From Phytoactinopolyspora halotolerans (GTDB taxonomy: Bacteria; Actinomycetota; Actinomycetes; Jiangellales; Jiangellaceae), in the NCBI RefSeq assembly GCF_010550675.1, contig NZ_JAAGOA010000019.1, positions 62,001 to 126,000 on the forward strand: 64,000 nucleotides of DNA. Direction: 5' to 3'. Within the stretch, counting starts at the first letter, position 1, and each line of letters begins with the position of its first letter. The notes beneath the pieces were generated by a model. The model ran no database searches. It was given only the letters and a program-made list of their open reading frames with translations, and was not told the DNA's origin. The translations under genes and the position numbers were made by a program. Positions 3 through 46,797 of the stretch are shown here, one piece after another.

Positions 3-656
3 CGCGCCGAGGATCTCCGCCTGGACGAGCGCGGATGCGCGTCGTTCACGCTGGTGACGCCGGCCGGGACGGCCCCGGTGCGGCTCGCCTTCGTCGGCGA
101 GCATCAGGTGTCCAACGCGCTGTCCGTCGCCGGGGTCGCGCACACCCTGGGGATGTCGCCCGAGCAGATCGGCGCACAGCTCACCGAGGCGCGGCCGCTG
201 TCGCGGTGGCGGATGGAGGTGACCGAGCGGCCGGACGGCGTCACCGTCGTCAACGACGCGTACAACGCCAATCCCGAATCGGTCCGGGCCGCGCTGAAGA
301 CGCTGGTCTCGATGGCCGGCGGCCGGCGGACCTGGGCCGTGCTCGGCGAGATGCTGGAACTGGGAGACGCCTCGGCCGCCGAACACGACGCTATCGGGCG
401 GCTCGCGGTGCGGCTGAACATCAACCGGCTCGTCGTCGTCGGCGAGGGCGCCCGTCCGATGTACCAGGGCGCCAGCCTGGAGGGCTCCTGGGCCGGGGAG
501 ACGGTCTGGGTTCCGGACCGGGCCGCTGCCGAGGAGCTTCTCGCCAAGGAGCTCGGCACGGACGACGTCGTGCTGGTGAAATCGTCCCGCGACGCCGGGC
601 TGCGGTACCTGGGGGACAGTCTGGTCGCCGCTGATGCGGGGGAGGACACCGAGTGA
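3..656 (+). CDS. murF: UDP-N-acetylmuramoyl-tripeptide--D-alanyl-D-alanine ligase, C-terminal part
   Basis: MurF adds D-Ala-D-Ala to the UDP-MurNAc-tripeptide in the cytoplasm, the last soluble step of stem-peptide assembly. The gene enters the window already open, so only about 217 C-terminal residues are visible and the P-loop is lost. What remains fits the central and C-terminal Mur-ligase domains: a [13 protein letters not shown] segment (the H-x-x-x-N-x-x-A signature), [17 protein letters not shown], and VLGEMLELG followed by a C-terminal Rossmann part with [11 protein letters not shown]. It ends in GAGTGA, overlapping the GTG start of mraY by 4 bp, which indicates translational coupling. 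Identity is sure from motifs and neighbours; only the truncation by the window edge is notable. Confidence 0.95.
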
Positions 657-1714
657 TCTCGATCCTCACGGCCGGCTTCGCCGCCGTGGTCGTCTCGATC
701 CTGGGCACGCCGCTCGCCATCCGCATCCTGGCCAAACGCGGCTACGGGCAGCTGATCCGCGACGACGGCCCGACGACGCACCACACCAAGCGAGGCACGC
801 CCACGATGGGCGGTGCGGTGATCATCATCGCCGTGCTGATCGGGTACATCCTCGCGCATCTGGTGCGGCCGACGGCGCCGAGCGCGTCCGGGCTGCTGGT
901 GCTGTTCCTGCTGGTGGGGCTCGGCCTGGTCGGCTTCCTCGACGACTACATCAAGATCTCCAAGCAGCGCAGCCTGGGGTTGCGCAGCGGCGCGAAGATG
1001 ACCGGGCAGGTCTCCGTCGCCGTCGCGTTCGGCATCATGGCGATCAATTTCGAGAACGACCAGGGGTACACCCCGGCGTCCACGGCCATCTCGTTCCTGC
1101 GGGACAGTTCGTGGGAGCTGCCGGCGGCGGCGTTCGTCATCTGGGCGTTGCTGATGGTCTCCGGCTCGTCGAACGCGGTGAACCTGACCGACGGGCTGGA
1201 CGGGCTGGCGACCGGCGCGTCGGTGATGGTGTTCGGCGCGTACACGCTGATCAGCGTCTGGCAGTTCAACCAGAGCTGTGCGGTGACGCCCGGGCCGGGC
1301 TGCTATGAGATCCGTGACCCGCACGACCTAGCGGTGATCTCGGCGGCACTGATGGGCGCGTGTTTCGGGTTCCTGTGGTGGAACGCGTCGCCGGCCAAGA
1401 TCTTCATGGGCGACACCGGCTCGCTGGCGCTCGGCGGGGCGCTGGCCGGGCTGGCCATCACCAGCCGCACCGAGCTGCTGCTGGTGGTGCTCGGCGGGTT
1501 GTTCGCCGTCATCACGCTGTCGGTGATCCTGCAGGTGGGCTGGTTCAAGCTCTCCGGCGGCAAACGGCTGTTCCGGATGGCGCCGCTACAGCATCATTTC
1601 GAGCTCAAGGGCTGGGCCGAGGTGACGATCGTGATCCGGTTCTGGATCGTGGCCGGGATGTTCGTCATGGCGGGAGTGGGGCTGTTCTACGCGGAGTGGG
1701 TCGCCACCGTATGA
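653..1714 (+). CDS. mraY: Phospho-N-acetylmuramoyl-pentapeptide-transferase
   Basis: MraY is the polytopic membrane enzyme that transfers phospho-MurNAc-pentapeptide from UDP to undecaprenyl phosphate, making lipid I. The 353 aa length is normal. Family motifs are present: GTPTMGG near residue 48, the Asp-Asp-Tyr of FLDDYIK at 97-99, [12 protein letters not shown] at 177-188 and [12 protein letters not shown] at 251-262; these carry the catalytic and Mg-binding aspartates. About ten hydrophobic segments are visible. The GTG start overlaps the murF stop. Unlike most actinobacteria the next gene, murD, does not follow directly: 270 bp containing an inverted-repeat element separate them. Confidence 0.97.
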
Positions 1715-1741
1715 GGGGGTCGGCGCGGGGATGATGAAGGT

Positions 1742-1938
1742 GGAAGGCGTCCTGAGGCTGGTGGGGACCAGCCGAGCGAGGGAGGGAGATCTCCCTCCTT
1801 GCCCAGCGCTCGGCTCGCACCGAGAGTCGCCGTCGATCTCGTACGTCGCGTACGCGAGCCTCGCGATGCCCACCACACCATGGATGGAGATCTCCCTCCC
1901 TCGCTCGGCTGGTCTCGGCTTGAGTACGGAGGCCTTCC
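1742..1938. repeat. Inverted-repeat (MITE-like) element inside the dcw operon
   Basis: A perfect 29 bp inverted repeat lies at 1766-1794 and 1886-1914, with 91 bp between the arms. The similarity continues more loosely outwards, so arms of about 53 bp start with GGAAGGC at 1742 and end with GCCTTCC at 1938. Each arm itself holds the palindrome GGGAGATCTCCC. No coding sequence is convincing inside it. It sits between the mraY stop and the murD start. It may be a non-autonomous mobile element, or a terminator/processing hairpin that lowers read-through; the sequence does not decide between them. Confidence 0.75.
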
Positions 1939-1984
1939 GCCCCATGGTTGGTCGCGTCGACTCCGTGGAAAGGGGGCGACCGAC

Positions 1985-3436
1985 ATGGGCGTGAACAGCC
2001 GGGAATGGTTGGAGCACGCGGACCGGGAGAGCCCGTGGGGCGAACTGTCGGTCGTGGTCGCCGGGATCGGGGTGTCCGGGTTCGCGGCGGCGGATGCGTT
2101 GGTGCAGCTGGGTGCGCAGGTGACCGTCGTCGATGAGGCGGATGGGGAGACACCGCGGGAGAAGGGGACCATTCTCGAGATCCTCGGGGCTACCGTGCGG
2201 CTCGGGGCGGGGGCGACGGCCGAGCTACCGGACGGGGCTGACTTGGTGGTGGTGTCGCCGGGATGGCGGCCGACGGCGCCGCTGCTGGTGGCGGCGGAGC
2301 AGGCCGGCGTGCCGATCTGGGGCGAGGTGGAGCTGGCGTGGCGGCTGCGCGATCCGGCGACGCCGTGGCTGGCACTGACCGGCACCAACGGCAAGACGAC
2401 GACGGTGAAGATGCTGGCCGAGATGTTGCGGGCATCCGGCCTGCGCGTCGGGGCGGCCGGCAATGTGGGCGACCCGATCGTGTCGGCGGTGATGGATCCC
2501 GGAGGGCACGACGTGCTGGCGGTGGAGCTGTCCAGCTTCCAGCTGCATTGGACGAACAGTCTGGCCGTGCGGTCGGCGGCCGTGCTGAACGTGGCGCCGG
2601 ACCACCTGGACTGGCACGGCTCGCTCGCGGCGTACGCGGCCGACAAGGGCCGGATCTACCAGGGCGTGCAGACCGCGTGCGTGTACAACGTGGCGGATGC
2701 GGAGACCGAACGGCTGGTCCGGGAGGCGGACGTGGTCGAGGGCGCGCGGGCGATCGGGTTCACCCTGGGCATACCGGGCGTGGGCATGCTCGGCGTCGTC
2801 GATGATCTGCTGGTCGACCGGGCCTTCATCGCCGAGCGGCAGACATCCGCGGCGGAGCTCGCCTCGGTCGACGACGTGCGCCCGGCGGCGCCGCACAACG
2901 TCGCCAACGCGCTGGCCGCGGCGGCGCTGGCCAGGTCCATAGGCGTGCCGCCGGTGGCGGTCCGGGACGGGCTGCGCGCGTTCACGCCGGACGAGCACCG
3001 GATCTCCACCGTGGCGACCGTCGGCGGGGTGGACTTCGTCGACGACTCGAAGGCGACGAATCCGCACGCGGCAGCCGCGTCGCTGGCCGCCTACACGTCC
3101 GTGGTGTGGATCGCGGGCGGTCTGGCCAAGGGTGCGTCGTTCGACGAGCTCGTCGCTGGAGCGAAAGACCGGCTGCGCGGCGCGGTGCTGATCGGCGCGG
3201 ATCGGAGCCTGATCAGCGAAGCTCTCGCGCGACACGCGCCGGATGTCCCGGTCATCGAGGTGGCGGACACGGACAATATGGCCATGGATCGTGCGGTGGC
3301 GGAAGCGGCCCGGCTGGCCCAGCCGGGAGACACGGTGCTGCTGGCGCCGGCCTGCGCGTCGATGGATATGTTCGCCAACTACGTCAGCCGCGGCGAGGCG
3401 TTCGCGGCTGCGGTGCGCCGCCATGACGGCCGTTGA
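1985..3436 (+). CDS. murD: UDP-N-acetylmuramoyl-L-alanine--D-glutamate ligase
   Basis: MurD adds D-glutamate to UDP-MurNAc-L-Ala in the cytoplasm. The ATG at 1985 is chosen because AAAGGGGG precedes it and the protein then begins just before the N-terminal Rossmann fold (VVVAGIGVSGFAAADAL, residues 23-39). A longer reading frame reaches back into the inverted-repeat element and is not believable as protein. Mur-ligase motifs: GTNGKTTT at 133-140 (P-loop), the ELSSFQL segment, NVAPDHLDWHGS, PHNVANALAAAALA, and DDSKATNPHA with GGLAKG in the C-terminal domain. The length of 483 aa is normal. The end overlaps ftsW by 14 bp. Confidence 0.96.
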   Translation: MGVNSREWLEHADRESPWGELSVVVAGIGVSGFAAADALVQLGAQVTVVDEADGETPREKGTILEILGATVRLGAGATAELPDGADLVVVSPGWRPTAPLLVAAEQAGVPIWGEVELAWRLRDPATPWLALTGTNGKTTTVKMLAEMLRASGLRVGAAGNVGDPIVSAVMDPGGHDVLAVELSSFQLHWTNSLAVRSAAVLNVAPDHLDWHGSLAAYAADKGRIYQGVQTACVYNVADAETERLVREADVVEGARAIGFTLGIPGVGMLGVVDDLLVDRAFIAERQTSAAELASVDDVRPAAPHNVANALAAAALARSIGVPPVAVRDGLRAFTPDEHRISTVATVGGVDFVDDSKATNPHAAAASLAAYTSVVWIAGGLAKGASFDELVAGAKDRLRGAVLIGADRSLISEALARHAPDVPVIEVADTDNMAMDRAVAEAARLAQPGDTVLLAPACASMDMFANYVSRGEAFAAAVRRHDGR

Positions 3437-15170: not shown

Positions 15171-15998
15171 ATGAAGAGGTTCAGTGCTGCAGCGGCTTCG
15201 CTGGTGGTGGCGGGAGCACTGGCGGCATGCGGCGGTTCCGGCGACGACGCGGAGGAGTCCGGGTCGTCGGCCGGGCCGGAGGCGGCGAGCACCGACAACG
15301 CCGGCCAGGACGGCTCTGATGCGCGAGCCGATGCGGACGCGGATGCGGACGCTGACGGCGCCGCCGCCGACGACGAGGCCGATGCCGACGCTGATACGGG
15401 CGACTCAGCGGAGCGGTCGGGCCACGGGCGTGTGCAGGAGGTGGTGGCCGAGCGACGGCCGCTCGCCTACGACGTTCCGGGACACTGGACCGTCGAATCG
15501 CCGGGCGTGATCACCGGCTTCGAGGAGGAGGATCCGGACGCTCCGTTCGGCTATCGCCCGACCGTGGGGATGAGCAGCGTCGCCTCCTACGGAGAGCGCG
15601 GCGGCGACTGCACACTCGCGCCCGCCAAGGCCGGTACCAACGGGATGGGCGAGGCCGGCTTCGACACCGAGGCCGCCGCGCAAGGAGTCGCCGTGATGTG
15701 GGCCGAGGCGGCGTACGGGGACGGCGACGACAAGCCGGAGTGTCAGCTCAGCGGCCCCGAGCCGTTCGAGGCCAACGGCCTGTCCGGGCACTACGTCGAG
15801 GCCGAGGTCACGCCCGTCCCGCACGAGTGCCACCCCGAGGATGCCCTGGTGCGCGTGGCCAGCTTCGACTCCCCGGACGGCGACGACGTGTACAACCTCA
15901 TCATCTACGCCGACGCCTCCGGAGCGCTGGCCCCGGAGGCGTCGGATCTGGACCTATCTTCTCGTCGATACGTCCGTCGTAGCCACGAGCAGCCATGA
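15171..15998 (+). CDS. Putative secreted lipoprotein of unknown function
   Basis: The product has a lipoprotein signal peptide: basic MKR, hydrophobic Ala/Val stretch and the lipobox LAAC with the Cys at about residue 20. A long acidic linker follows, made of Asp-Ala repeats (DADADADAD at about 55-63). The folded part (about 95-275) has four or five Cys residues and motifs GDCTLAPAKAGT, QLSGPEPFEANG and YNLIIYADASG; I do not recognise the family. ATG 15171 is preferred because ACGGAG ends 7 nt upstream; GTG 15165 and ATG 15168 are in the same frame. The stop codon is inside a palindromic repeat arm. Confidence 0.75.
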   Translation: MKRFSAAAASLVVAGALAACGGSGDDAEESGSSAGPEAASTDNAGQDGSDARADADADADADGAAADDEADADADTGDSAERSGHGRVQEVVAERRPLAYDVPGHWTVESPGVITGFEEEDPDAPFGYRPTVGMSSVASYGERGGDCTLAPAKAGTNGMGEAGFDTEAAAQGVAVMWAEAAYGDGDDKPECQLSGPEPFEANGLSGHYVEAEVTPVPHECHPEDALVRVASFDSPDGDDVYNLIIYADASGALAPEASDLDLSSRRYVRRSHEQP

Positions 15999-16045
15999 TC
16001 ATGAACAGTTTCCGTTCACATAGCACGGAAACTGTTCATGATCAT
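15995..16045. repeat. Family B palindromic repeat, copy 1
   Basis: Perfect 20 bp arms, ATGATCATGAACAGTTTCCG at 15995-16014 and its complement at 16026-16045, with the 11-nt loop TTCACATAGCA. The lipoprotein stop TGA (15996-15998) is part of the left arm, and the ileS stop on the other strand lies 6 bp beyond the right arm. It could terminate both convergent genes. Confidence 0.9.
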
Positions 16046-16050
16046 GAGAG

Positions 16051-22685: not shown

Positions 22686-22705
22686 AGCTCACCCACCCCC
22701 CGGCC

Positions 22706-22798
22706 CTAAATGATCATGTGAAGTGGGTTTTCTCCAGCACTACCATGCCTGCAGACCTGTTGGTGCACGAGAAAACCCACTTCACATGATCATTTAGG
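22706..22798. repeat. Family A palindromic repeat, copy 1
   Basis: Perfect 30 bp arms at 22706-22735 (starting CCTAAATGATCATGTGAAGT) and 22769-22798, with a 33-nt loop. It lies between the convergent rluD and PAP2-DAGK genes. A second copy, with its loop in the opposite orientation, lies on the other side of the PAP2-DAGK gene at 24223. Confidence 0.92.
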
Positions 22799-24222: not shown

Positions 24223-24315
24223 CCTAAATGATCATGTGAAGTGGGTTTCTCGTGCACCCCCATGTCTGCAGGCATGGTACGGCACGAGAAGACCCACTTC
24301 ACATGATCATTTAGG
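24223..24315. repeat. Family A palindromic repeat, copy 2
   Basis: Arms of 33 and 34 bp (24223-24255 and 24282-24315) pair with one bulged base; the loop is 26 nt. Arms match copy 1, and the loop matches the reverse complement of the copy 1 loop in 15 of 17 central bases (TCTGCAGGCATGG shared). It lies just upstream of the PAP2-DAGK start. Confidence 0.9.
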
Positions 24316-35403: not shown

Positions 35404-35939
35404 ATGACGATGACGGAGATGCTGCTGGAGATCGACTCGCGCAGCGCGTGTCACTGGGGCGACTTGCCCGCCACAACCGTTACCTCGCACACGAGGAACC
35501 CGGAGGAATCATCGTGCTGCAACCCGCCGAGGCCATGACCAAAGCTCAGGCTGACCTGCTGATGAGCGGAGAGACCGTGGACGGCGTAGATCGGTTCCTT
35601 GCCGATCCGGATGGCACTGGCGTGCGTCGGGGTCGCCCTCGCCGACAGCGAGTCATGTCCCTGGAACCCCTCTACTCATCGGCAGCGGCCACAACGCTTG
35701 ACGGGGAGGAGAGCGATCCGGCGCGTTCTCAGCCATGGAACGCCATCTGTGACGCGATCGATCTCATCTGCGACAGGCCGGACAGCGCGGAGGCGCGACG
35801 CACGGCGCTGCGGACACGAGACGGCAACACCGTGTGGCAGGTGGCCGTCCGGGGCGGCGGCGATTGGGTCGTGCTGGGGTTCCCGCGGCCACCGGATGCC
35901 TTGATCGCCTACATAGACACAGCCGACTTCCGTAGTTGA
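35404..35939 (+). pseudogene. Frameshifted antitoxin-toxin locus (AbrB-like antitoxin, RelE-like toxin)
   Basis: ATG 35404 starts MTMTEMLLEIDSRS in one frame. The continuation SLGRLARHNRYLAHEEPGGI, typical of this antitoxin type after LEIDSRGRV, is in the next frame from 35448. One missing base near 35440-35446 explains this. The second frame then runs through the antitoxin body (MTKAQADLLM, RRGRPRR) straight into a toxin-like segment beginning MSLEPLYSSAAATTL (ATG 35655) with AICDAIDLICDRPDSAEAR and TVWQVAVRGGGDWVVLGFP, a RelE/ParE-like pattern. Antitoxin and toxin are normally separate. The antitoxin is probably inactive; whether the toxin part is still made from ATG 35655 is unknown. Confidence 0.6.
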
Positions 35940-35986
35940 TGGTTGACCGGCCGGCGTGGGCGTTCGGGCCGGCCGGTCAACCATCA
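35937..35986. terminator. Bidirectional hairpin with embedded stop codon
   Basis: Perfect 19 bp arms, TGATGGTTGACCGGCCGGC at 35937-35955 and its complement at 35968-35986, 12-nt loop. Its first three bases are the stop codon of the toxin-like frame; the convergent alpha-mannosidase stop is 8 bp beyond. Confidence 0.85.
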
Positions 35987-41163: not shown

Positions 41164-41814
41164 ATGGATGTTCTTTCGGCCCTGAGCGCTCGACGTCTCG
41201 TCCCGGTCGTCGTCCTTGACGACGCGGCCTACGCCGACCAGCTGGCCGGTGCCCTCGTCGAGGGTGGCCTCCCGGTAGCCGAGGTCACGTTCCGGACGTC
41301 GGCCGCCGAGGAGGCCATCCGCGCGATGGCGGACCGCGGCGACATGCTGATCGGCGCGGGCACGGTGCTCACGCCGGAGCAGGTCGACAAGGCGGTGGCC
41401 GCCGGCGCGTCGTACGTGGTCTCGCCGGGGCTGAGCCGCGCGGTGGTCGAGCGCTGCCACGAGCACGGCGTGCTGGCCCTGCCCGGTGCCGTCACCGCCA
41501 CCGAGATCCAGGCCGCGCTCGAGCTCGGCATCACCACGGTGAAGTTCTTCCCGGCCGGAACGTCCGGAGGTGCGGCGGCGGTCAAGGCGCTCGCCGCGCC
41601 CTTCGGCGACGTGCAGTTCGTGCCCACCGGCGGCGTGAACGCGAAGAACCTTGCGGAGTACCTGGCCATCCCGGCCGTCGCGGCGGTCGGCGGATCGTGG
41701 ATGGTTCCGCGTGACCGCATCAAGGACGGCGACTTCGGCGCCATCGCCGAACTGACCGCCGACGCCGTCGCACTCGCCACCACCCCCTCCCCGTCCCCTT
41801 CCCCCTCCCCGTGA
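41164..41814 (+). CDS. KDPG/KHG aldolase (second copy)
   Basis: A 216 aa class I aldolase of the Eda family. VAEVTFRT carries Glu40, IGAGTVLTPEQVDKAV and SPGLSRAVVE are conserved, and TTVKFFPAG carries the Schiff-base Lys127; FVPTGGVN binds phosphate. VTFRT is the more common Eda form, so this copy is the better candidate for the Entner-Doudoroff-type KDPG enzyme. The C-terminus ends in a Pro-Ser repeat from a C-rich tract that leads directly into a palindromic repeat, which provides the stop codon. Confidence 0.93.
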   Translation: MDVLSALSARRLVPVVVLDDAAYADQLAGALVEGGLPVAEVTFRTSAAEEAIRAMADRGDMLIGAGTVLTPEQVDKAVAAGASYVVSPGLSRAVVERCHEHGVLALPGAVTATEIQAALELGITTVKFFPAGTSGGAAAVKALAAPFGDVQFVPTGGVNAKNLAEYLAIPAVAAVGGSWMVPRDRIKDGDFGAIAELTADAVALATTPSPSPSPSP

Positions 41815-41860
41815 TCATGAACACTAACCGTGCTATGCGAACGGTTAGTGTTCATGATCA
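41812..41860. repeat. Family B palindromic repeat, copy 2
   Basis: Perfect 19 bp arms, TGATCATGAACACTAACCG at 41812-41830 and its complement at 41842-41860. The loop TGCTATGCGAA is the reverse complement of the loop form in copies 3 and 4, so this copy is inverted. The aldolase stop is the first triplet of the left arm. The next gene starts 35 bp later. Confidence 0.92.
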
Positions 41861-43999: not shown

Positions 44000-44058
44000 C
44001 CCCATGATCATGAACACTTTCCGTTCGCATAGCACGGAAAGTGTTCATGATCACGGGG
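44000..44058. repeat. Family B palindromic repeat, copy 3
   Basis: Arms TGATCATGAACACTTTCCG at 44005-44023 and the complement at 44035-44053, loop TTCGCATAGCA. CCCC/GGGG flanks at 44000-44003 and 44055-44058 extend the stem past one mismatch. The stop of the minus-strand discoidin gene (44053-44051) is the outer triplet of the right arm. Confidence 0.92.
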
Positions 44059-45625: not shown

Positions 45626-45684
45626 CCCCATGATCATGAGCACTTTCCGTTCGCATAGCACGGAAAGTGTTCATGATCATGGGG
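45626..45684. repeat. Family B palindromic repeat, copy 4
   Basis: Arms ATGATCATGAGCACTTTCCG at 45630-45649 and 45661-45680 pair with one mismatch; loop TTCGCATAGCA. CCCC/GGGG flanks at 45626-45629 and 45681-45684 extend the stem to 24 bp. No stop codon is embedded here; it lies at the broken end of the PhoD fragment. Confidence 0.92.
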
Positions 45685-45757: not shown

Positions 45758-46750
45758 GTGGACGATCACCAACTGCCCGCCGCGCTTGTCGATGTGATCG
45801 CGCGCCAAATGGGCCTCGTCTCGCGGCGGCAGCTCGTCGATCACGGCGTCGGGGAGGAGCTGGCACGGGCCCGGGTGCGCGCGGGCCGATGGCAGCGGAT
45901 CCATCGCGGTGTGTACGCCGTGTTCAGCGGTCCGCTGACTCGCGCCGCGCAGATTTGGGCGGCGCTGCTTCGGGCCGGCGACGGTGCGGTGGCCAGCCAT
46001 CAGACCGCCGCCGAACTCGACGGGCTGCTGTCCGACGTCGACGACCGGATCCACGTGACGGTCGAGGCCACCCGCCGCGTGCGGGGCAAGATCGACGGCG
46101 TGGTGGTGCACTACGCGCATCGACTGCCCGATACCCGCCACCCTTCGAAGGATCCGCCGCGCACGCGGATCGACGACACCGTCCTCGACCTCGTCGACGT
46201 GTCGCACAGCCCGCGAGCCGTCGCCGGTTACGTCACGCAGGCGTGTCAGAACCGGCTGACGACGCCGCTGCACCTGGCCGATGCCCTGGGCCGGCGGAAG
46301 AAGATCAAATGGCGGCCGATGCTCGAGGCGATGCTGCTGGATGTGGCCGAGGGAGCGCAGTCCCCGCTGGAGCTGAAGTACCTGTGGTCGGTGGAGCGGG
46401 CGCACGGCCTGCCCCGGGGCAGCCGGCAATGCCGCAGGTCGTTCACCCGGGTGATCTGGATCGACGTCCTGTACGAGGAGTTCGGCGTGGTCGTTGAGCT
46501 GGACGGTCGGGTGGGCCATGACGGAGACGGCCAGTTTCGCGACCGCCGTCGCGACAACCGCTCCACCACGCACGGGTTGTGGACGCTGCGCTACGGCCAT
46601 GCCGAGACGTTCGGCACTCCGTGCGACGTCGCAGCGGAGGTCGTGGACCTCTTGCGCCGGCAGGGCTGGCGAGGGACGCCCACGCCGTGTTCCCCCGACT
46701 GCCCGCTCCCCACCCCGTCCCCGTCCCGGTCCCGGTCCCGGTCCCGATGA
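45758..46750 (+). CDS. AbiEi-like N-terminal domain plus DUF559 nuclease-fold protein (paralog)
   Basis: 330 aa, same architecture as the gene at 8641 but low identity. Winged-helix-like N-terminus (ARQMGLVSRRQLVDHGVGEE, GRWQRIHRGVYAVFSG), middle SHQTAAELDGL and DTVLDLVDVSH, and a C-terminal DUF559/Vsr-like domain VIWIDVLYEEFGVVVELDGR with RDRRRDNRSTTHGLWTLRYG. The Asp and Glu-x-Asp of a PD-(D/E)XK site are kept. Role unknown. The end is a Ser-Arg repeat read from a C-rich tract and stops inside the palindromic repeat, so the natural C-terminus was probably changed by the repeat. Confidence 0.75.
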   Translation: MDDHQLPAALVDVIARQMGLVSRRQLVDHGVGEELARARVRAGRWQRIHRGVYAVFSGPLTRAAQIWAALLRAGDGAVASHQTAAELDGLLSDVDDRIHVTVEATRRVRGKIDGVVVHYAHRLPDTRHPSKDPPRTRIDDTVLDLVDVSHSPRAVAGYVTQACQNRLTTPLHLADALGRRKKIKWRPMLEAMLLDVAEGAQSPLELKYLWSVERAHGLPRGSRQCRRSFTRVIWIDVLYEEFGVVVELDGRVGHDGDGQFRDRRRDNRSTTHGLWTLRYGHAETFGTPCDVAAEVVDLLRRQGWRGTPTPCSPDCPLPTPSPSRSRSRSR

Positions 46751-46797
46751 TCATGAACACTACCCGTGCTATGTGAACGGTTAGTGTTCATGATCAT
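46747..46797. repeat. Family B palindromic repeat, copy 5
   Basis: Arms at 46747-46766 (ATGATCATGAACACTACCCG) and 46778-46797 with one mismatch; loop TGCTATGTGAA, the inverted orientation as in copy 2. It includes the stop codon of the upstream gene (46748-46750). Downstream is a strongly G-rich run (46798-46835). Confidence 0.92.

Follow-up and report, generated by a model that had tools for sequence, protein, structure and literature searches.

The attC sites of integrons combine palindromic arms of variable sequence with recognition via the folded strand, and their conserved bases lie in the outer boxes. The REP/REPIN/BIME elements linked to RAYT transposases are small extragenic palindromes that occur in many copies downstream of genes and occasionally within them, as described in the accessible part of PMC3733652; that part contains none of the terms actinobacteria, actinomycet and mycobacter, though it refers to REP-like sequences lacking a tag in M. 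tuberculosis and further species. According to the available sections of a review on MITEs (PMC2229807), the NEMIS/Correia, ERIC, YPAL and RPE repeats are 100–200 bp long, form long hairpins in transcripts and include intergenic as well as in-frame intragenic copies, and most of them have fixed terminal inverted repeats, TA ends and target duplications. The repeat described here is located between mraY and murD in the dcw cluster, at the start of a window of 64,000 nucleotides from Phytoactinopolyspora halotolerans (contig NZ_JAAGOA010000019.1, positions 62,001 to 126,000, forward strand). It resembles the REP-type elements in all the features named above, but has neither a GTAG/CGTC tag nor a Y1 transposase, and its conserved part is an internal loop on variable stems. 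Size, hairpin structure and intragenic copies also connect it to the NEMIS group, whereas its ends vary. Compared with attC as described, it has variable palindromic arms in common but carries its conserved bases in the interior loop. Our literature search returned no description of this repeat family, and the portion of the Jiangella gansuensis genome paper available to us (PMC5292007) contains no mention of such a repeat. This family-wide dispersed palindromic repeat is a new family with a new layout, yet a known kind of thing.

The gap between mraY (653–1714) and murD (1985–3436; window coordinates throughout) amounts to 270 bp and contains, as an earlier note on this DNA had claimed, a perfect inner inverted repeat of exactly 29 bp (1766–1794/1886–1914). 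The repeat extends to 33 bp with one mismatch and ranks second among the perfect inverted repeats of the window at spacings of up to 400, the longest being a 30-bp repeat belonging to the palindromes named family B. The full imperfect arms of 63 nt (1739–1801/1879–1941) are 79% complementary, and the 203-nt element has a predicted folding energy as RNA of −135.8 kcal/mol vs. −89.2 ± 5.0 kcal/mol for 200 shuffled versions (z −9.3). The region is composed of the following features:

653..1714, plus strand: mraY, the upstream gene (open reading frame; Pfam Glycos_transf_4 and MraY_sig1).
1739..1765, no strand: outer imperfect left arm (part of the inverted repeat 1739–1801/1879–1941; paired in the predicted fold).
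1766..1798, no strand: P1 arm, left on the plus strand, with the perfect 29-bp arm at 1766–1794 (inverted-repeat search).
1799..1806, minus strand: conserved short side of the internal loop, CTGGGCAA (YTGGGCRA or CGGGCGA in the family; alignment of 22 copies and listing of 129 copies).
1807..1865, minus strand: P2 hairpin with CGC...GCG closing pairs (on the minus strand), which covary in 22 copies, and GGCTCGC/GCGAGCC at 1812–1818/1854–1860.
1866..1881, minus strand: conserved long side of the internal loop, ATGGTGTGGTGGGCAT (invariant or nearly so in 22 copies).
1882..1914, no strand: P1 arm, right on the plus strand, with the perfect 29-bp arm at 1886–1914 (inverted-repeat search).
1915..1941, no strand: outer imperfect right arm (inverted repeat; predicted fold).
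1967..1976, plus strand: GGAAAGGGGG, likely ribosome-binding site of murD, judged from the sequence.
1985..3436, plus strand: murD, the downstream gene (open reading frame; start set by a codon-usage caller; Pfam MurD-like_N, Mur_ligase_M and Mur_ligase_C).

A DNA search of the genome of origin gave several partial matches, and these share one layout with the matches found in sister genomes. In the minus-strand direction of the window, a variable stem P1 is followed by the loop sequence ATGGTGTGGYGGGCAT, a variable hairpin P2, the sequence YTGGGCRA and the second arm of P1, the conserved internal loop being asymmetric with sides of 16 nt and 8 nt. The window copy shows exactly this arrangement, with the 5′ loop ATGGTGTGGYGGGCAT and YTGGGCRA placed across P2 within a long stem, and is scored by the family model at 1781–1899 on the minus strand with 63.5 bits (E 7e-12, the copy being part of the model's own seed). 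The position between genes would also fit an ordinary terminator-like hairpin of local origin that is not a repeat; we give this explanation practically no chance, as it is refuted by the conserved loop common to dozens of copies. When the loop pattern alone was searched with 0–1 mismatch and no requirement for a stem, it was found at nine places in the genome, seven of which have a stem score of at least 15; the other two (L039 and L040) have kept the loop and show no stem. Among random anchors in the fetched loci, a comparable stem occurred in 11 of 4000.

Within the alignment of 22 copies, the loop columns are near-invariant and the 18-bp stem is variable. Standard pairs make up 95% of the cells of P1 and the three closing pairs of P2, which is an upper figure because the 22 seed copies had been selected for their stems (four of 26 regex matches, L039, L040, L042 and L043, were dropped) and because the model used to detect the later copies favours pairing. 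Double changes occur in 18 of the 21 pairs, and the covariation score of the 22 copies is 0.656, compared to 0.203 ± 0.020 for shuffled and 0.094–0.158 for slid versions. The closing pairs of P2 covary, the middle one being A-U in 16 copies and G-C in six. This strong covariation, including that of the P2 closing pairs, together with the conserved internal loop, is what would be expected of a conserved structured RNA, i.e. a cis-acting 3′-UTR element or a terminator/attenuator whose fold is under selection and which is duplicated passively without being mobile. We regard this explanation as somewhat unlikely. Against it stands the scarcity of G-U pairs, which represent just 2.2% of the stem cells (56 of 2533), and among the isolated stem mismatches (29 G.T, 15 A.C and 35 others) G.T does not clearly exceed A.C when position 3 is excluded (25 vs. 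15, p 0.15). Rfam covariance models gave no match at E ≤ 1 over 11 loci.

The stems of the family are about 20–36 bp long and variable in sequence. Stem statistics were compiled from 116 copies after removing arms shorter than 18 bp and identical arm pairs, and in these the left-arm columns 8–9 and 12–16 contain less than 0.5 bit each. Sequence conservation fades with distance from the core: mean pairwise identity among 33 copies of one sister species (G004; G000 denotes the genome of the window and G001–G004 four sister species of the same genus) falls from 0.93 for the loop to 0.85 for the inner arm and 0.62 for the outer arm. The 129 listed copies fall into the type of the window copy, a subtype with GGTGCGGACGGGCATC and CGGGCGA, and a subtype with AGGGTNGGCNCGGGCATC and a longer P2, and the loop sequence differs again in the genomes of the Jiangella-like genus g3. 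In the copies L119, L107, L181 and L345, the long P2 encloses an additional hairpin whose loop, around ATCCGAGCGCCAGCGAGGAAC, recurs, and these copies look as if the loops were modules on interchangeable stems.

The ends of the copies vary as well and yet stay complementary, the interior alone being conserved. A DDE-type MITE is characterised by conserved terminal inverted repeats, and none were found here because the arms differ between copies. A MITE belonging to a classical DDE insertion sequence, whose terminal inverted repeats would be fixed, is therefore improbable, even though the size, the signs of mobility and the in-frame intragenic copies of the repeat would fit, as judged from the available sections of the MITE review (PMC2229807). 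The idea that the repeat is a REP mobilised by a RAYT (TnpA_REP) transposase is still more improbable. The accessible part of PMC3733652 describes REPs as extragenic palindromes that follow coding regions where the neighbouring genes are convergent or unidirectional and that are in some cases intragenic, as is seen here, and also mentions REPs lodged inside longer palindromes. However, the IS200/IS605-like Y1 transposase (Y1_Tnp, PF01797) was detected in none of 11 genomes, while the control genomes were positive, and no tetranucleotide is conserved outside the stem: the flank columns reach at most 0.65 bit relative entropy, compared to up to 2.3 bits in the loop. An unpaired GTAG/CGTC tag at the palindrome end is not conserved among the 116 copies, GTAG or CTAC occurring within the six flanking nucleotides in no more than 3 of them on either side, and the CGTCC that ends the left arm in 25 of the 116 copies is base-paired. 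The RAYT route thus failed on both defining features tested, the Y1 transposase and the unpaired tag.

The earlier note had also proposed that the element is distinct from two other palindrome families of the window, A and B, and this was borne out: the window holds no second copy (the next match is weak with 26 bits), and families A and B have no loop or arm sequence in common with the mraY-murD repeat. They resemble it in their palindromic form, their variable inner stems and their location at gene ends within this genus. Families A and B (15994–16046, 41812–41860, 44005–44053, 45630–45680, 46747–46797; 22705–22798, 24223–24315) are palindromes that carry ATGATCAT near their ends, and ATGATCAT-ended palindromes with other inner stems are present at the mraY-murD junction of G002 and at locus L307 of G003. 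Families A and B and these palindromes with the same end may form a second superfamily with variable stems. The window additionally contains a perfect 19-bp hairpin, TGATGGTTGACCGGCCGGC, with a 12-nt loop at 35937–35986.

Searching the genome for further copies, a check suggested by the earlier note, was successful. All model counts given here are lower bounds. Covariance model R1 matched at least 17, 3, 18, 1 and 79 places in G000 to G004, respectively, and model R2, which was built from 82 copies, at least 34, 7, 23, 3 and 84. Copy number therefore ranges from 3 to 84 inside one genus, which does not favour a non-mobile structured RNA. At least 18 of 22 genomes of the family (Jiangellaceae) contain R2 matches, as scored on 150 candidates per genome, far more than were scored in the samples of the class and phylum. 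In a class sample, R1 matched at least 8 of 296 genomes, namely the five genomes of the genus, two from a second genus in the family and a single one from another family; with stricter filters in a phylum sample of 396 genomes, the R2 matches listed were confined to the genome of the window. The exact loop pattern occurred in 12 of 393 genomes of a class sample, seven of them from the family with up to 41 places and five others with one place each, and we took these five single matches outside the family as chance. The one R1 match in another family (G006, L206:2522–2595) consists of one copy-like hairpin whose loop matches ATGGTGTGGTGGGCA exactly (E 1.3e-5); it was not recovered by model R2 and may reflect transfer, a relic or chance. 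A 1.7-kb query containing a third core subtype matched about 30 places in G000 and 24 in G002, with matches to flanking genes counted in.

Gene contexts come from a codon-usage gene caller for which the window served as training set, not from annotation, and 122 of the 129 copies were placed, seven with arms below 12 bp being left out. Of these, 52 lie between convergent genes, 56 between tandem genes, 2 between divergent genes and 12 inside called ORFs, the hydantoinase-like gene described below being the only such placement checked. The 110 intergenic copies are not distributed as predicted by intergenic length (p = 2e-15) or by gap number (p = 1e-13). Copies in convergent gaps lie closer to the gene running opposite to the core strand in 39 cases and closer to the other gene in 12, with one tie (p 2e-4); for tandem gaps, the core runs against the direction of the genes in 40 cases and along with it in 16 (p 0.002). 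The median distance from the relevant stop codon is 14–24 nt. Copies settle mainly in the first tens of bases past stop codons and in a preferred orientation, a placement that a structured RNA acting in the 3′-UTR would also show. The window copy follows the majority, with its core on the minus strand and the mraY stop codon 51 nt away.

At the mraY-murD junction, the distance from the mraY stop codon to the GxGxSG motif of MurD is 342 nt in the window, compared to 26–229 nt in 62 of 80 relatives, the remaining 18 having no readable MurD motif and being left out of the range. It is 62 nt in G001 and G003 and 83 nt in Jiangella muralis, and the statement of the earlier note that the two genes are normally only a few bases apart holds on these distances. 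In G001 and G003, i.e. two of the five species, mraY and murD overlap or abut without any spacer. The junction of G002, the species closest to G000 at the compared loci, is occupied by a palindrome of another family with ATGATCAT ends, and that of G004 by a copy of another subtype plus partial copies. The comparison of relatives suggested earlier thus shows neither the same element at the same place in all of them nor a lack of other copies, and the proposal of an inserted repeat element is well supported by the many other copies and by the junctions of G001 and G003 without the element.

Similar differences are observed at other sites. The L095 site is empty in G002, and the L099 site contains other palindromes in G002 and G003 and none in G004. 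The G002 locus L305, which is orthologous to the L099 site, has its gap occupied by a palindrome with the arms GGGAGCAGGATCTGGAGGC and GCCTCCAGATCCTGTTCCC. The rpsM-rpsK gap (genes assigned via Pfam) contains a copy in two genera, represented by G000 (L098:2545–2637) and G167 (L201:2519–2619), and none in G002 (L129). A fused hydantoinase/oxoprolinase-like gene carries an in-frame copy in one inter-domain linker in five species (L340, L341, L345, L346 and L348), which is oriented one way in G003, G167 and G094 and the other way in G000 and G001; the linker contains no element in G002, G023 and G244 and what looks like an element remnant in G004. Sister-species sites that are empty or hold other palindromes and copies in both orientations within a coding gene speak against a structured RNA that is only passively duplicated, whereas long-lived shared sites would agree with it. 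Such sites common to different species or genera (L094/L113, L098/L201, L151/L200, L119/L176 and L199/L203) indicate that part of the distribution reflects old inheritance rather than recent movement and that copies also persist. Neither target-site duplications nor exact boundaries are readable at the empty sites, since divergence between the sister species is too high in their intergenic DNA.

Taking these observations together, we consider it probable that the mraY-murD element represents a palindromic repeat that is mobile but non-autonomous, is specific to the bacterial family and forms a long P1/loop/P2 hairpin. Copies would have spread within this family, with gain, loss or replacement at corresponding sites of different species. 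The insertion between mraY and murD would have separated two genes that overlapped and were translationally coupled, leaving two cistrons with 270 bp between them, and murD now has its own likely ribosome-binding site (GGAAAGGGGG), needed because it no longer overlaps with mraY. Movement might be brought about by a host enzyme recognising the folded hairpin or its conserved loop. A more specific version, which we find rather doubtful, is that the conserved internal loop and not the ends represents the mobile signal: an enzyme of the bacterial family other than RAYT would read the loop in folded single strands and place the unit at gene ends, and copying of one arm onto the other would rebuild the stem, which would render the stems interchangeable and always near-perfect.

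The repeat most likely works like REP or NEMIS repeats and is transcribed as a long intercistronic hairpin. The earlier note had suggested that the element may divide the operon into two transcripts or create a processing site. A scan of positions 1600–2100 revealed no Rho-independent terminator, i.e. no GC stem with a T-tract behind it, and no sigma-70-like promoter; the missing T-tract also counts against a structured RNA of the terminator type. Copies within the dcw and rpsM-rpsK operons imply read-through and argue against an absolute terminator, making full termination by the element unlikely. In the mRNA, the hairpin would rather be read through and act as a site for a double-strand-specific RNase or as a barrier stabilising 3′ ends. 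A role of the long double-stranded stem as RNase III substrate is plausible by analogy, since RNase III processing of the hairpin was proposed for NEMIS repeats in the available sections of PMC2229807, and RNase III sites exist in Streptomyces mRNA according to the accessible part of PMC4681348.

The pairing of the stems may be kept either by selection for the fold or by template switching, in which one arm is copied onto the other. According to the part of PMC8794818 available to us, template switching is known to generate perfect hairpins and to maintain them, and the lean of the mismatches towards G.T over A.C slightly favours selection on the RNA fold. Double changes comprised 119 transitions and 148 transversions among 80 nearest-neighbour pairs and 29 transitions and 9 transversions among pairs with at most two differences, and fourfold sites between G000 and G002 showed 100 transitions and 360 transversions. 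Because these spectra are mixed, they do not decide between upkeep of the stems at the DNA or the RNA level, and we did not use them as proof for either.

In three of the five species of the genus, the essential and normally overlapping mraY-murD pair is split by different hairpins. The layout of a constant interior loop on variable, near-perfectly paired stems sets the family apart from tagged REPs and from MITEs. Because its sites are found empty, filled or refilled in sister species, two questions become testable with this family: how palindromic repeats spread without RAYT, and whether template switching or selection is responsible for perfect stems.
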